The notes under the pieces: model-generated | Seen by the model: the letters and a program-made list of their open reading frames with translations, nothing else | The model's database searches: none | Told to the model about the DNA's origin: nothing | Position numbers and translations under genes: made by a program | In this document: positions 10,861-18,114 of the stretch, piece by piece | Layout of the letters: every line of letters begins with the position of its first letter | How positions within the stretch are numbered: the stretch's first letter is position 1 | Source: an uncultured Woeseiaceae bacterium | Lineage (GTDB): Bacteria; Pseudomonadota; Gammaproteobacteria; Steroidobacterales; Woeseiaceae | NCBI GenBank assembly: GCA_947259145.1 | Contig: CAMYLB010000036.1 | Span: 1 to 36,610 of the forward strand | Length of the DNA stretch: 36,610 bases | Direction of reading: 5' to 3'

Positions 10861-10990
10861 CAGGATGACCCTCGCGGGTTGACCGGCAACATCCTGTTGC
10901 CGGCCCTTCGGGCGAACTGCGTTTGTCCTAAATCGCTCCCGGCGATTTAGTCGCCGCTCAGCTAAGTCAGCCGGCTGCGCCGGCCTCGGA
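10861..10990. repeat. Hairpin-rich intergenic module related to units of the 16.0-16.6 kb array
   Basis: Three strong inverted repeats (CCGGCAAC/GTTGCCGG; CTAAATCGC/GCGATTTAG; GCCGGC/GCCGGC) and the shared string cgctcagctaagtcagccgg..ccggcctcg, compared with gctcagttatgtcggccg..cggcctcg in the array. Confidence 0.6.
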
Positions 10991-11578
10991 GTCCACTGTT
11001 CCGCCAGTTATGATCCGCATCCGCTTGAAATAGCCCAGTTCGGCCAGTCTGGCCCCTTCCCTGCCCTGAATGTCGGCTTTTCCCCAAAGCGAGCTATCAG
11101 TCGAGCGGTTTCCTTAATGGTAGCGCCTATAACCACTGGTTCGACCACGGTTTAATGGACCGCTGGTAGCTGCTCTTGGACTTCCCCCAGTACGTATGAC
11201 ACTTCCGGGCTATGATTGGACTTCCCCCGCCCCGAATGTCCGCGTCTCGACATAGCGGCCGTTCAATCAGAGCAATTCAAGTCAAATTGACCGGCGGCTT
11301 TCGGCCAAAAGCGGAGATAAAACGACTGCCGCGACGCTCACGCTTACGGAGCACCCACCCTTGCCGCCTCGACTCCAGGATTCACCGCCTGCCTTCCAAA
11401 CTCAGGGCCTCACCGTCACGATAGAATTTTCTGTCCTTTGACTGATATAGTGTTCTTTGTCATTAGAACATTCGTATATTAAGAAATAAGATATCGCGAG
11501 AAGCGCCAGGTTTCTTGGTGAAAATGCATTGTCGAAGGAAAAATGCGCGGTCTGTAAATTGTTTGTGAGGGGTTACCA

Positions 11579-12361: not shown

Positions 12362-12569
12362 GCTTATGTAGTCTGAGATCTCTACCGCGCGTTCATGAGC
12401 CTACCACGCAGAATGTCTGGTAGCGGGGGCGCGCTTTGTTCGTTAGCAAGGTCCCTCGAGCCCATGACTATACTGGACGTCCCGCTGATAGCTGCCTAGC
12501 CATCGGGGGCGCCTTGCCCTGCAAACGTCTCCTTTTCCCGAAAAGGTCCAATTTCCTTCAAACGCTGCA

Positions 12570-13799
12570 CTAGTGTTTTGAAACGCGCAATAGCCTGGCG
12601 CGGCGGCGGTCGACACGTATTACGTCGACCTGGTGCCCATTCCAATCGATAGAATCGCCGACGACGGGGATACGCTCGAGTGTCTCGGTCACTAAGCCGC
12701 CGATCGTCGATACGTCTATGGTCGGATCCCACGTAATGCCGAGCTCGTCAGACAACTTTCGCAAGTCGACGCGACCACGAACGAGCAACGTACCATCGGC
12801 TTGCTCTCGAAAGTCATCCACCGGCAAATCGCTCTCGTCACGAATGTCGCCGACGATTTCCTCGAGCACGTCCTCCAGCGTCGCCACACCCCCGACAGTG
12901 CCATACTCATCAACGACGATCGCCAAGTGGCGGTGACTGTCCTGGTAGGTATGCAATAGCTGTGGCAGGGGCGCGCTATCCGGCACGACCAGCGCGTCCT
13001 TGCGAATCGCCTCCCAATCGATCGGGTCGTCGTCGTGCTCCAAGAGCCAGTACAACAGGTCCTTGGCCAGTACGACGCCGGACACGTCGGAAAGATGCGT
13101 CGTCGGCGAGAATGGGAAGCGACTGTGACCGGACTCCCTGACGAGCTCGATTGCCTCGTAGCGATCCATTGTTGCGGACAGATAGCGTACGTCCTTGCGC
13201 GGCAACATCACATCTCTCGCGTGCAGGTAGCGCAACTGTGTCGCACCAACGATGATCTCGGCGGTGTGGTCGGCGACCGCCCCCTCGCTCCGCCCGAGCG
13301 CAGCCAGCAGTCGGAGCTCCTCCGATGACGTTACCGGGACGTCGACGTCGCTGCGAATTGAACGGGAGATCTTTTCGCTAACCGCAACCAGCGGCCGTAA
13401 CAGGATCGCCAGCCAGTTGATGCCATGGGCGACAGGTACGGCAAGCTTAGACGCGTGCGTAATGCCAAGCGTCTTCGGAATGATCTCCGTGAACAGTAGA
13501 ACGGCTATCGTGAATATGATCGTAAATATCCACAAGGTTTTGACGTCGAATACATTGGCGTAGCTTGCGCCGGCGACCGCGGCGCCAACAGTATGGGCCG
13601 CTGTGTTTAGTATCAGGATTGCGGCGATCGGTACGTCCATGTTTTCCTTAAAGCCAGACAGCAGCCGACCGGCTCGCTCCCTCCTTTGACCAACCAGGGC
13701 AATTTGCGATCTTGTCAGAGACAGCAGAACACTTTCGAAGATCGAACATAAGAACGAAACGACAAGTACGACACTTACAGCTAAGACGAAAAGCAGCAT
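12570..13799 (-). CDS. CNNM-transmembrane / CBS-pair / CorC_HlyC-domain protein
   Basis: N-terminal membrane domain (FTEIIPKTLGITHASKLAVPVAHG), CBS region (ARDVMLPRKDVRYLS), VDEYGTVGGVATLEDVLEEIVGDIRDE. Confidence 0.92.
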   Translation of the reverse strand: MLLFVLAVSVVLVVSFLCSIFESVLLSLTRSQIALVGQRRERAGRLLSGFKENMDVPIAAILILNTAAHTVGAAVAGASYANVFDVKTLWIFTIIFTIAVLLFTEIIPKTLGITHASKLAVPVAHGINWLAILLRPLVAVSEKISRSIRSDVDVPVTSSEELRLLAALGRSEGAVADHTAEIIVGATQLRYLHARDVMLPRKDVRYLSATMDRYEAIELVRESGHSRFPFSPTTHLSDVSGVVLAKDLLYWLLEHDDDPIDWEAIRKDALVVPDSAPLPQLLHTYQDSHRHLAIVVDEYGTVGGVATLEDVLEEIVGDIRDESDLPVDDFREQADGTLLVRGRVDLRKLSDELGITWDPTIDVSTIGGLVTETLERIPVVGDSIDWNGHQVDVIRVDRRRARLLRVSKH

Positions 13800-13868
13800 G
13801 TTGCCTCCGCAAGAAATAAGGATTCATAATAACTCGCGGAAGCTGCTTTTGGGACGCCGGCTCAGCAG

Positions 13869-13913
13869 GCATTGGCTAAATTGGCATCGACACGATGCCA
13901 ATTTAGCCAATGC
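13869..13913. repeat. 45-bp perfect inverted repeat (21-nt arms, 3-nt spacer)
   Basis: gcattggctaaattggcatcg-aca-cgatgccaatttagccaatgc. Confidence 0.95.
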
Positions 13914-14035
13914 AACGCTATGCCAGGCCCATCGAATCCGGCTAACGGCCCAACTTCTACTGCCGTGACGGCTCACTGACACTAGTCATCTCATAGCGTA
14001 GCAGCAGCTCGGCAATCATCCGGGACATATGAATA

Positions 14036-14209
14036 ATGGATTTCGAGTGAATAGCCATAGCCCTTGGCGACGTCGCCTGGATCACTTTGGCCTTTGCGCT
14101 TGGCTTTGGCTCGCGACAAATCGGTTTACCGCCCCTCGTGGGCTTTCTCGCCACTGGTTTTGTGCTGAACTATCTTGGCATCGCCCCCGTCAGCTTGACC
14201 AACACGTAA
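14036..14209 (+). pseudogene. N-terminal relic of a CPA2-type (KefB-like) cation:proton antiporter
   Basis: MDFE*IAIALGDVAWITLAFALGFGSRQIGLPPLVGFLATGFVLNYLGIAPVSLTNT*: CPA2 N-terminal-like, with an in-frame TGA at codon 5 (14048-14050) and an early TAA. Confidence 0.6.
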
Positions 14210-14318
14210 ATACAGTAGAGCGCCAGTACGACCGCAGCCTCCCAGCGCTGTATGACGCATTTGAAAAGAAAGAAGAACATGACTAGGGCATTTACGGATA
14301 TGACTCCAGTTACGAATG
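14170..14318 (-). pseudogene. Possible C-terminal relic of a CaCA-type Na+/Ca2+ antiporter
   Basis: VTFVTGVISVNALVMFFFLFKCVIQRWEAAVVLALYCIYVLVKLTGAMPR*: hydrophobic helix pair with an RWEAA..L.LY..YVL motif; no upstream body. Confidence 0.35.
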
Positions 14319-14364
14319 TTACTCGACGAAAGCAACAATCTATTTAAAGTGCACGGTGGTCTTC

Positions 14365-15162
14365 CTATTCTGAATTTCTGTCTGACACCTGCGATTTCGA
14401 AACGCGTTCCCAGAGTATGGCGAACTGGCCATAGGCGAGCACCGTAATGATCGGGAACAGCGCCGTGAAGGCGATCAGGCCGAAGCCGTCCAGCAGTGGG
14501 CTGCGTCCCGGCACGGCGTCGGCCAGGCCAAGCCCGAGCGCCGCGACCAAGGGAACTGTAACGGTCGATGTCGTCACACCGCCCGAATCGTACGCTAACG
14601 GCACGATCTCTTTCGGGGCTGCCATCGTCTGCACGATCACAATTAAGTAACCGGCCGCGATGAAATAGGGCAACGGCAAACCCGTGATGATGCGGAAGCA
14701 GCCCAAGCTCACGCCGATGCCGGCACCGATGGCCACTGCAACGCGCAGGCCGACGACGCTGATTGCCCCACCAGAGACAGTGTTGGCTTTCATAGCCACT
14801 GCCATCAGTGAAGGTTCCGCCATGGCCGTGGAAAAACCGACCGTCGCTGCAAAGATATAGACCCAGTAGAAATCCTCCCAGGTAAAATCGGCCACGGCGT
14901 GCTCTACAGTGTCGCGCAAGAATTCGGGATGGGTGAGCTGCTCCGCCATCATGCGCCCGAGCGGAAACAGGCTCTGCTCGAGGCCTTCCAGGAACAGGCC
15001 CAGCCCGACGACGACGAACACGAATCCCACGATGATCTTGCCTCCGTTAGGCATCCTTTTGCCGATGACGAACCACTGAAACGCGAACAGAAAGACGACA
15101 ATCGGCAGCACGTCCAGCGCGCTGTCGGCGACGAAAATCAGTGTGTTAACAGCCAGCTCCAT
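14365..15162 (-). CDS. DUF1538 membrane protein (second gene of pair)
   Basis: [49 protein letters not shown], shared with its neighbour; UGAUG overlap with the upstream gene. Confidence 0.85.
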   Translation of the reverse strand: MELAVNTLIFVADSALDVLPIVVFLFAFQWFVIGKRMPNGGKIIVGFVFVVVGLGLFLEGLEQSLFPLGRMMAEQLTHPEFLRDTVEHAVADFTWEDFYWVYIFAATVGFSTAMAEPSLMAVAMKANTVSGGAISVVGLRVAVAIGAGIGVSLGCFRIITGLPLPYFIAAGYLIVIVQTMAAPKEIVPLAYDSGGVTTSTVTVPLVAALGLGLADAVPGRSPLLDGFGLIAFTALFPIITVLAYGQFAILWERVSKSQVSDRNSE

Positions 15163-15896
15163 CAGATCACCATGCCGTAGATCAGCACGAACAGGATCGG
15201 CGTCAACGAGGCAAATGCAATCAGGCCAAAGCCGTCCAGCATCGGGTTCCGGCCCTTCAGAGAGCTGGCGAGCCCCACACCCAGCGCGGTCACCAGCGGA
15301 ACGGTCACAGTCGAGGTCGTCACTCCGCCGGAATCGTAGGCGATGCCGATGATCTCGGGGGGCGCGATCGCCGTGAGCAGTACCACCAGCACATAGCCGC
15401 TAATGATCAGCATCGGCAGCGACAAGTTGGTGATGATGCGGAATACTCCTAGCACAAGCGCAACGCCGACGGCGAGCGCAACCGTCATGCGCAGGCCAAA
15501 CGCGTAGTCATCCATAGCCTCGGGCGTTCTCGCGATGACTTCCGCATCCGCGGCAACTGCCGCTGCCTCGGCTGCGACAGCGATCAGAGCCGGCTCCGCC
15601 ACCGTCGTCCCGAAGCCGAGCACGAAGGCGAAGGAGATAAGCCAGAATACGCTCCCTTTGCGCGCGAGCGAGTGAGCAAGCCCCTCGCCAACGGGAAAGA
15701 GCGCGAGTCGCAGGCCAAAGATGAAAAAGGTGAGACCCGCAAACACGAGCAGCCCGCCGACGACGAGAGACAGCAGGTCATTGACCGGCTGGCGGATGAC
15801 CAACACCTGGAAAACACCGATGACGACGATGATCGGCGTCAGGTCGCGCAGGCTATTAGCTGCATCTCTAGCGAGTGCTCGGAGTGAATCCTTCAA
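15162..15896 (-). CDS. DUF1538 membrane protein (first gene of pair)
   Basis: [49 protein letters not shown]; paralogous to the adjacent gene. Confidence 0.85.
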
Positions 15897-16235
15897 GTGT
15901 ATTTAGCCCGTTTCCCGACTTCAGTCTATCTATAGCCATTTGCAAAGACAATTAGAGGGCCCGTCGCGTGGCTCTCGTGGAGAAGGCCATAGGAACGAGA
16001 GTAGGATGTGGTGGTAGCCGAGGTAGGATGGCCTTCGCAGCTTCGCCGGTGGGGCAGGATTGCCCTCGGCGCTTCGCGCCTCAGTTATGTCGGCCGACCG
16101 CGTCGGCCTCGGACGATTCGAATCTCCCTAAGGTCGATTCTCACCCCTTCGGGGCGCTAGGCAAGCTGGCGTCCAAAACGCTAACGCGTTTTGTTGACTT
16201 GCTTCGCAGGTTCAAGCCCTGCACTCGCGTTAGCG

Positions 16236-16277
16236 AAAACAAAAAAGGCCCTCGCAAGGAGGGCCTTTTCTTGTTTT
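16236..16277. terminator. Bidirectional-looking terminator hairpin T1
   Basis: aaaacaaaaaaggccctc-gcaag-gagggccttttcttgtttt. Confidence 0.75.
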
Positions 16278-16394
16278 TGGTAGCGGGGGCAGGATTTCGC
16301 GCTTCGCGCGGTCTTGGCGCCTTTGCCGATGCTACACATCGGGGCGCCTGCAGCTGAACCTGCTTCCTCGCAGGTTCAAATCGGCCGCGCTATG

Positions 16395-16436
16395 CAAACG
16401 AAAATGGGCCCCACAAGGGGGCCCATTCTTCGTTTG
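16395..16436. terminator. Bidirectional-looking terminator hairpin T2
   Basis: caaacgaaaatgggcccc-acaag-ggggcccattcttcgtttg. Confidence 0.75.
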
Positions 16437-16554
16437 GTAGCGGGGGCAGGATTGCCCTCGCCGCTTCGCGGCTCAGTTATGTCGGCCGGCGAAGCCGGCC
16501 TCGAAACGAACCTGCGCCCCTGCGGGGCTGTTCAGGTTCAAACATTGCTCATTT

Positions 16555-16597
16555 CCAAATGAAAAAGGGCCCCACAAGGGGACCCTTTGTCATTTGG
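16555..16597. terminator. Terminator-like hairpin T3; its outer arm includes the tRNA CCA
   Basis: ccaaatgaaaaagggcccc-acaag-gggaccctttgtcatttgg. Confidence 0.75.
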
Positions 16598-16653
16598 TAG
16601 CGGGGGCAGGATTTGAACCTGCGACCTTCGGGTTATGAGCCCGACGAGCTGCG
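16595..16653 (-). tRNA. tRNA-fMet (CAT), 5' acceptor/D-arm region incomplete (apparent 18-nt internal deletion)
   Basis: Minus strand CGC|AGCTCGTCGGGCTCATAACCCGAAGGTCGCAGGTTCAAATCCTGCCCCCGCTACCA; initiator-type anticodon stem (GGG/CCC) and CAT anticodon. 59 nt present; a remembered 77-nt initiator tRNA would have about 18 more between CGC and AGCTCG. Confidence 0.85.
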
Positions 16654-16665
16654 GGGTTTACAACC

Positions 16666-18114
16666 CTATCCGAGTATCTCGATACAGAGCGCCATCAGCC
16701 AGCCCGGAACGATGCCAAGCGCCAGGACTGCCAGGGAATTCAGGCTCAGCAAAACGCGCGTATCAGAGCTCGCCTGCAGAACCGCCTGGTCCTCTGCGGG
16801 CTCGAAATACATGTACCAGATGACCTTGAGGTAGTAGAAAGCACCGACGACTGAGGCCAGTACCATCAGGACCGCAAGCCCCGGATAACCCGAGGCCAGC
16901 ACGGCGCTGATGACGTTTAACTTGGCGAAGAATCCGACGAATGGCGGCACGCCGGCCATGCTGAACATCAGGAACATCATCATGAGCGCGACCCAGGGGC
17001 TGCGGGCATTGAGACCGTTAAAGTCGGTCAGGTTCTCCGCCTCGTAACCACGTCGGCTCATTACAATAATCACGCCGAATGCTCCGGCGGCTGCAACAAC
17101 GTAGGTTAACGTGTAGAAGAGCGCGGAAGCGTCGCCCTCCCCCGTCCCACAGAAGATCCCGAGCAGAATAAAGCCAACGTGCCCGATGGTCGAATAGCCC
17201 AGCATGCGTTTGATATTCGTTTGCGCTATCGCGACCAGGTTGCCGACGACGAGCGACAAGACCGCAACGACCATGATCATCGACGACCAGGTCTCGTGTA
17301 AGCCGCCCAGGCCGTCAACCAGAATGCGTAAGGTCAGTGCCAAAGCCGCGAGTTTCGGAGCCGACGCGAGATACAACGTCACCGGAGTACGAGCCCCCTG
17401 GTAAACGTCAGGCAGCCACATGTGGAATGGTACGGCACCGAACTTGAACGCGATGCCAACGATCAGGAACGCGAGGCCGAACCACAATGGCAGGTTGTTC
17501 AGCGACGGGTCCGCCGCAATAGCCGCCGCAATTTCGTGAAACTGCAGCGAGCCTGTTATCCCATAGACCCAGGAGATTCCGTACAGCAAACAGCCGGAAG
17601 CGATTGCACCCAGCACGAAGTACTTCATGGCGGATTCTGCGGCCGTGACATTATTTCGGTCAATAGCGACCAGCGCGTACATGGATAGCGCAAGCGTCTC
17701 TAGACCCAGGTACATGGTCAACAGACTATTCGCGGACATCATGATCATCATGCCAAGTAAACCGAACAGTCCAAGCAAGTAATACTCGCCCTTGTGGAGG
17801 TCATTGGCACGCAAATAGTCGCGCGCATAGTAAAATGACACGCCGACAAACAAGACAGCGGCGAGTTTCAAAATCTGTGACAGCGGATCGCTGACGTAGC
17901 TGCCATAGAACAATACGATGCGGCCATCCGGCACGGTTGCGTAAATGACTCCGGCCGTAACGATGAGCGCGATAATGCTCAGCCAGAAGGTGTAGACACG
18001 ATGCTCACTATCAATGAACAGATCGGCAATCAGGACCACGCAGATCAACACTAGTAGCGTCATCTCCGGAGCAGCTGAAATCAATTCCATATAGTTCATA
18101 AATAGACCTGTCAA
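16666..18114 (-). CDS. nuoN: NADH-quinone oxidoreductase subunit N
   Basis: Proton-pumping subunit family motifs (FKFGAVPFHMWLPDVYQGARTPVTLYLASAPKLAAL); terminal nuo position. Confidence 0.95.
   Translation of the reverse strand: MTGLFMNYMELISAAPEMTLLVLICVVLIADLFIDSEHRVYTFWLSIIALIVTAGVIYATVPDGRIVLFYGSYVSDPLSQILKLAAVLFVGVSFYYARDYLRANDLHKGEYYLLGLFGLLGMMIMMSANSLLTMYLGLETLALSMYALVAIDRNNVTAAESAMKYFVLGAIASGCLLYGISWVYGITGSLQFHEIAAAIAADPSLNNLPLWFGLAFLIVGIAFKFGAVPFHMWLPDVYQGARTPVTLYLASAPKLAALALTLRILVDGLGGLHETWSSMIMVVAVLSLVVGNLVAIAQTNIKRMLGYSTIGHVGFILLGIFCGTGEGDASALFYTLTYVVAAAGAFGVIIVMSRRGYEAENLTDFNGLNARSPWVALMMMFLMFSMAGVPPFVGFFAKLNVISAVLASGYPGLAVLMVLASVVGAFYYLKVIWYMYFEPAEDQAVLQASSDTRVLLSLNSLAVLALGIVPGWLMALCIEILG

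Follow-up and report, generated by a model that had tools for sequence, protein, structure and literature searches.

A tyrT-like array of tRNA-fMet 3′ ends in a Woeseiaceae genome, probably stacked by insertion at the T-loop

Why should the 3′ end of an initiator tRNA gene be repeated behind the gene itself? The question is raised by a 36,610-nt stretch of DNA from an uncultured Woeseiaceae bacterium (GenBank assembly GCA_947259145.1, contig CAMYLB010000036.1, positions 1 to 36,610; hereafter the window), in which the last 19 nt of tRNA-fMet recur in tandem. Comparable repeats behind E. coli tyrT have remained an old, isolated and unexplained curiosity. An earlier note, made from the letters of the window alone, proposed that the two arrays are analogous. 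Here, we examined the anatomy of the window array, its counterparts in related genomes and the explanations that could account for it.

The tRNA-fMet tail array of the window

The exact 19-mer AATCCTGCCCCCGCTACCA, which is tRNA-fMet from A58 to A76, occurs three times on the minus strand at spacings of 160 and 157 nt, confirming the recurrence that had been reported (Table 1). An exact search of the 3.08-Mb assembly found no fourth copy, and the likelihood that the array arose by chance is negligible. The array follows nuoN, whose stop is at 16666, and is on the minus strand. In the reading direction of the tRNA, the order of a unit is tail, intrinsic terminator, T-arm-like hairpin ending in GGTTC, a string of perfect hairpins (the module) and the next tail. 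The terminator stands at the head of every unit directly after the CCA, and a GAACCTG..CAGGTTC hairpin is the second element, between terminator and module. The earlier note had each tail preceded by a hairpin on the plus strand; the hairpins exist, but on the tRNA strand they come after each tail, as intrinsic terminators. Similarly, the caggttcaaa ends that it read as inverted T-arms are the 5′ half of the T-arm, with an upstream GAACCTG as partner. Since GGTTC, module and tail follow one another in this order (the junction runs ..CAGGTTC, module, CAATCCTGCC..), the module lies inside the T-loop, between C56 and A58.

Table 1. Features of the tRNA-fMet tail array and its adjoining segments in the window.
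Feature	Position	Strand	Basis or remarks
tRNA-fMet remnant, 5′-truncated: anticodon arm, T-arm, acceptor 3′ strand to CCA	16595..16652	-	Rfam, ARAGORN, L058 alignment
Exact 19-nt tail within the remnant	16595..16613	-	exact match
Intrinsic terminator opening unit 1	16556..16594	-	AAAGGGTCCCCTTGTGGGGCCCTTTTT hairpin and T-run; fold
Unit 1 (160 bp): terminator, GAACCTG..CAGGTTC hairpin, module I, 19-nt tail	16435..16594	-	
Module I: two hairpins linked by GACATAACTGAG, within T-loop of tail fragment	16454..16507	-	covariation
Exact 19-nt tRNA-fMet tail, copy 2	16435..16453	-	
Unit 2 (157 bp): terminator, GAACCTG..CAGGTTC hairpin, module II, tail	16278..16434	-	
Exact 19-nt tRNA-fMet tail, copy 3	16278..16296	-	
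Unit 3 (compound, decayed): terminator, module III, second module I copy, damaged tail	16050..16277	-	
Diverged tail ATCCTACCTCGGCTACCA	16012..16029	-	
Tail-delimited segment with genes	12418..16277	-	ends in type C site and GCCCCCGCTACCA; Pfam, tail at 12418
Two DUF1538 genes	15162-15896 and 14365-15162		in (-) segment 12418..16277; Pfam
CNNM/CorC protein gene	12570-13799		in (-) segment 12418..16277; Pfam
Decayed module I behind type A-like arm (..GGAACAGTGG / ACTCCGAGG..)	10910..10992	-	R1 34.6 bits

Units 1, 2 and 3 contain three different modules (I, II and III), and unit 3 also has a second module I and a damaged tail. Unit 1 aligns tail to tail with a unit from another locus (L050:6951-7110) at 83%. 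R1, the covariance model of module I, gave 95.8 bits for module I plus tail at unit 1; in unit 3, the scores were 91.3 bits for model R2 (16111-16192) and 87.7 bits for R1 (16043-16115), all three being sequences from the training sets. The weaker copies noted near 16048 and 16013 also held up, the first as a second copy of the 16435-16507 block (16043-16115, 89% identity) and the other as a diverged tail. The array was originally placed at 16012-16653, which is real but too short, as tail-ended segments reach 12418 and probably 10910, where a decayed module probably marks the end of one more segment.

To what extent are the hairpins of the modules conserved? In a small alignment of module I/II (12 rows, sequences sharing descent), 97.6% of cells were paired, with 8 doubly changed pairs, compared with 30-38% in slid controls. 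For module III (8 rows, likewise few and sharing descent), the values were 96.6% paired and 9 doubly changed pairs, with slid controls at 30-47%. Because pairing was far above that of the slid controls and pairs had changed on both sides, the fold is conserved, either in RNA or in single-stranded DNA.

What the earlier note called the tRNA-fMet gene, at the head of the array, has lost its 5′ part. ARAGORN called no tRNA at this locus, the Rfam tRNA model reached only 33.7 bits, and ~51 bp are absent in comparison with L058, the closest named relative (NuoN 95%), covering the nuoN-tRNA intergenic gap and the 5′ part of the tRNA up to the D-arm. The window copy lacks the intact 5′ acceptor strand and D-arm that a functional tRNA-fMet needs. 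A pattern search of this 76%-complete MAG found no second fMet-like 3′ arm; therefore, either the assembly misses an intact copy or the deletion is itself an error of assembly, and the ~51-bp loss could be a true deletion or an error of this kind.

Modules, tails and gene-bearing segments in related genomes

The earlier note suggested searching related genomes for the array, and similar arrays were present in many relatives, so the objection that no related genome has one fails. The genomes compared were draft MAGs throughout, E. coli excepted, and some searches scored a limited number of candidates. An intact tRNA-fMet behind nuoN, followed by more tails, is common in the related genomes. Units of different genomes align tail to tail across settings, be it immediately after the tRNA, after a different end site or on a contig that has no tRNA-fMet. 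In many genome pairs, nuo-region synteny of up to 11.7 kb breaks within ~15 nt of the CCA. Two pairs of filled and empty forms were also identified. Behind its final tail, L142 has the terminator found immediately after tRNA-fMet in L024 (another family), and an 89-bp unit in L126 is absent from L136. In both comparisons, the array stands inserted ahead of the native flank.

Several related loci differ in form. Tail repeats of tRNA-fMet that are 89-140 bp long and free of the Woeseiaceae modules occur in other gammaproteobacterial MAGs (L125:7030-7400, L126:2059-2148); in L125, an inverted piece of the anticodon stem is also part of the units. At L041:10060-10210 (G013:C322), a tRNA-Gly(CCC)-like gene has the fMet-type tail AAATCACGCCCCCGCTACCA at its end, as though recombination had joined the end of an element to a different tRNA. 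Woeseiaceae contigs often end within a few hundred bp of tRNA-fMet (e.g. G058:C53, G031:C69, G019:C78), and the array is probably under-represented in assemblies because of these breaks.

R1 matches occurred in 37 of the 73 genomes of the genus and in 56 of 296 genomes of the order, mostly Woeseiaceae. Based on covariance-model matches, modules accompany at least seven tRNA types in this family, namely fMet, elongator Met (CAT), Pro (GGG, CGG), Gln (CTG), Arg (ACG, CCG), Ser (GCT) and Glu (CTC), and many R1 matches lie away from tRNA-fMet, with the tail of their local tRNA. In loci that had not been fetched by a GTTC-containing pattern, GTTC lay 2-3 nt upstream of 31 of 49 modules, compared with ~2% by chance. 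The exact motif was absent from 18 of the 49; three of these look like coding-sequence coincidences and most others are in T-loop-like or type A contexts. Many modules then continue as (A/C)ATC.. to the CCA of the local tRNA. Scrambled-flank controls gave 0-1 hairpins each.

At tRNA-Pro, L237 has two near-identical 144-bp units with the tRNA-Pro tail at the end, and units of this kind are also found in the window's own genome (C268, L247). Whole tRNA copies broken in the T-loop stand beside an intact copy in L251 (window's genome), L243, L254 and L256. The last of these has three tandem tRNA-Glu copies (L256:1221-1900), with TATAAT-like boxes and a T-loop module, ahead of an intact tRNA-Glu; judging from these boxes, the interrupted copies may be transcribed. 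GTTC also closes the module in L251, L252 and L235, and GTTC at both module ends would fit insertion with a repeated end. Such an end duplication is not general, because some modules, the fMet ones among them, have no second GTTC.

Woeseiaceae tail-delimited segments are 0.65-12 kb long with one to several genes each. Their cargo includes toxin-antitoxin pairs (BrnT/BrnA-, HicA/HicB- and HigB-like, read from sequence) and CNNM homologues of the window gene. Window genes were checked with Pfam and the genes of other segments were identified by reading the sequence. The segment in the window carries an adjacent pair of DUF1538 membrane-protein genes (14365-15896). The end sites of the segments can be grouped into types that recur. 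Type A, the most frequent (23 sites), is conserved for ~60 bp upstream of the CCA and not beyond, and module I or III occupies the same place within the type A site in L190, L222, L224 and L176. About 4 kb behind tRNA-fMet, L042 (G045:C22) has a second tail-delimited segment of 12.4 kb with a gene for a 2127-aa protein and a fragment resembling a serine recombinase C-terminus.

Known systems and candidate enzymes

The E. coli K-12 tyrT locus (RtT RNA, RF00391, rttR) has three near-identical 178-bp units, which run from AAGGTTCGA through hairpins to GCGCTGAGT and AATCCTTCCCCCACCACCA, giving a 19-nt tail from A58 with a module in the T-loop. The likeness covers repeats behind a tRNA, lengths of 157-178 bp, the A58-A76 tail and a hairpin module between GGTTC(GA) and AATCC, i.e. 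the T-loop. In agreement, the window has tandem units that each close with the 19-nt end of the tRNA ahead of them, and a structured module between GGTTC and A58, with a junction common to window unit 1 and E. coli (L315). Since the tyrT/rtT units show the same anatomy, the tyrT analogy is valid, and it goes deeper than was first claimed. In contrast to E. coli, fMet units open with strong terminators, and Woeseiaceae arrays extend to further tRNAs and to segments with genes. By covariance model, the window was rejected as a member of the RtT family, as the RF00391 model did not report the window at E<=1 and R2 in the reverse test gave the E. coli units only 14.4-14.8 bits (E ~0.1). The similarity of module sequences between E. 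coli and Woeseiaceae is only suggestive.

The modules, as short GC-rich hairpins that are probably non-autonomous, also resemble REP/BIME palindromes and REPINs with their RAYTs, and rtT-like elements belong to BIMEs (PMC2965389). In contrast to REPs, the Woeseiaceae modules in the DNA examined are almost only in tRNA T-loop contexts, and the RAYT genes of these genomes have no flanking modules. No R1 match lay beside the RAYT gene in ten RAYT loci, and no RAYT (PF01797) was detected in G000. On the basis of these module-free loci, a RAYT/REP origin of the modules was rejected.

Like integron cassette arrays, the Woeseiaceae arrays have small one-to-few-gene segments, toxin-antitoxin-like pairs, one anchor and conserved end sites, but the anchor is a tRNA, gene orientation is mixed and attC-like sites do not fold consistently. 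Indeed, the type A-F end sites mostly gave z near 0 and folded no better than shuffles in most cases, so that attC-like folding of these sites was rejected. No IntI was seen beside the array among the matches listed for 24 genomes to PF00589, which is not IntI-specific. Like tRNA-targeting integrative elements (genomic islands, ICEs, tycheposons), the arrays have a tail duplicate at the far end, a restored tRNA at the near end, a synteny break at the CCA and, in some genomes of the genus, a serine recombinase adjoining tRNA-fMet. Unlike such elements, most segments are too small for a recombinase gene, and the shortest are gene-less ~160-bp units.

Few large serine recombinases are present in the genus, with 15 matches to PF07508 in 73 genomes. 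Eight of the 11 matches above 35 bits sit 0.7-2.5 kb behind tRNA-fMet and are convergent, pointing toward the tRNA (G046, G015, G048, G049, G053, G045, G040 and G012); none was detected in G000. Based on this position, a serine recombinase is the candidate enzyme of the fMet site. Tyrosine recombinases (PF00589) were rejected for this role, as none lay near the fMet tails among the matches listed for 24 genomes, and no recombinase was linked to the modules at non-fMet tRNAs. A long palindrome of tail plus inverted tail was also rejected, since p<0.05 was reached in 3 of 40 segments, roughly the number that chance would give. In a partial coverage of the literature, we found no paper on tail arrays of tRNA-fMet, on arrays of tRNA-tail cassettes or on REP insertions in the T-loop, nor one that names T-loop inserts as a common feature.

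Explanations for the array

The evidence points first to an insertion hot spot at the DNA level. The window holds a tyrT/rtT-type tRNA-tail array that, we infer, was probably stacked by site-specific insertion at the T-loop. Each unit combines a copy of the tRNA 3′ end, from A58 to CCA, with a terminator of its own and, behind these, a T-arm 5′ half whose T-loop is filled by a module. Insertion would be site-specific, in the T-loop next to C56, and the host tRNA would stay functional because the inserted DNA supplies it with a new 3′ end and terminator. The displaced tail would move downstream, and repeated insertion would pile up tails, with the 160-bp units as the smallest, gene-less members, possibly mobilised in trans by recombinases. 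T-loop insertion with a new 3′ end would account for the start of the tails at A58, the terminator of every fMet unit, the change of cargo and modules from one tail to the next and the loss of synteny at the CCA. Support comes from where the modules lie in the T-loop, from their conserved fold, from the tail-to-tail alignment of units, from the two filled and empty pairs, from the synteny breaks, from the serine recombinases near tRNA-fMet and from the like anatomy of E. coli tyrT. Counting against it are the failure to link any recombinase to modules at tRNAs other than fMet, the 18 of 49 modules without the exact GTTC, the lack of a general end duplication, the draft state of the MAGs and the several different end arms of the gene-bearing segments; in addition, the near-identical tandem units of L237 could be plain duplications.

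Alternatively, much as the earlier note suggested with its processed small RNAs or decoys for 3′ maturation enzymes, the repeats may be kept for their transcripts, as rtT-like small RNAs whose tRNA-like 3′ ends occupy tRNA-processing enzymes or which regulate. The hairpins are kept by compensatory changes, rttR of E. coli carries a small-RNA annotation, and TATAAT-like boxes persist in the interrupted tRNA-Glu copies. In addition, a relative of module III in L226 passes the gathering threshold of AaHKsRNA22 (RF02902, an Aggregatibacter sRNA; 40.9 vs 39.8 bits), with window unit 3 falling below it (32.3 bits). However, fold conservation is also expected if single-stranded DNA is the substrate, and low read-through from the tRNA promoter is expected because a strong intrinsic terminator heads each fMet unit. 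We therefore regard RNA-level function as rather unlikely to be what maintains the repeats, with modules acting as RNAs a live rival.

If slippage or unequal recombination had simply duplicated tRNA 3′ ends in tandem, REP-like hairpins would have joined as passengers afterwards and no site-specific system would be needed. Such plain duplication explains identical tandem units such as the nearly identical 144-bp pair of L237 and the three of E. coli. As an account of the whole array it is improbable, since adjoining window units hold different modules, units lie behind unrelated arms on other contigs, cargo varies between tails and synteny breaks at the CCA. A MAG assembly or binning artefact, which contigs ending just behind tRNA-fMet and the truncated window tRNA might suggest, has next to no probability and is refuted for the array by units that recur in independently assembled genomes and other families and by the equivalent array in the finished E. 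coli genome.

Returning to insertion at the T-loop, we raise, tentatively and at somewhat less than even likelihood, a broader reading: an undescribed T-loop-targeted system in which folded modules (DNA or RNA) and small cassettes enter many tRNA genes at a fixed T-loop position and stack behind regenerated 3′ ends, with E. coli tyrT/rtT as one old example. If the same anatomy recurs behind many tRNAs of other bacteria, and the insert is in the T-loop every time, the puzzle of the tail repeats becomes one of what inserts at the T-loop, and whether its substrate is RNA or single-stranded DNA. The array also brings to light small gene cassettes that are stacked on a tRNA anchor in a bacterial family of marine sediments, where the fMet site has a candidate recombinase.
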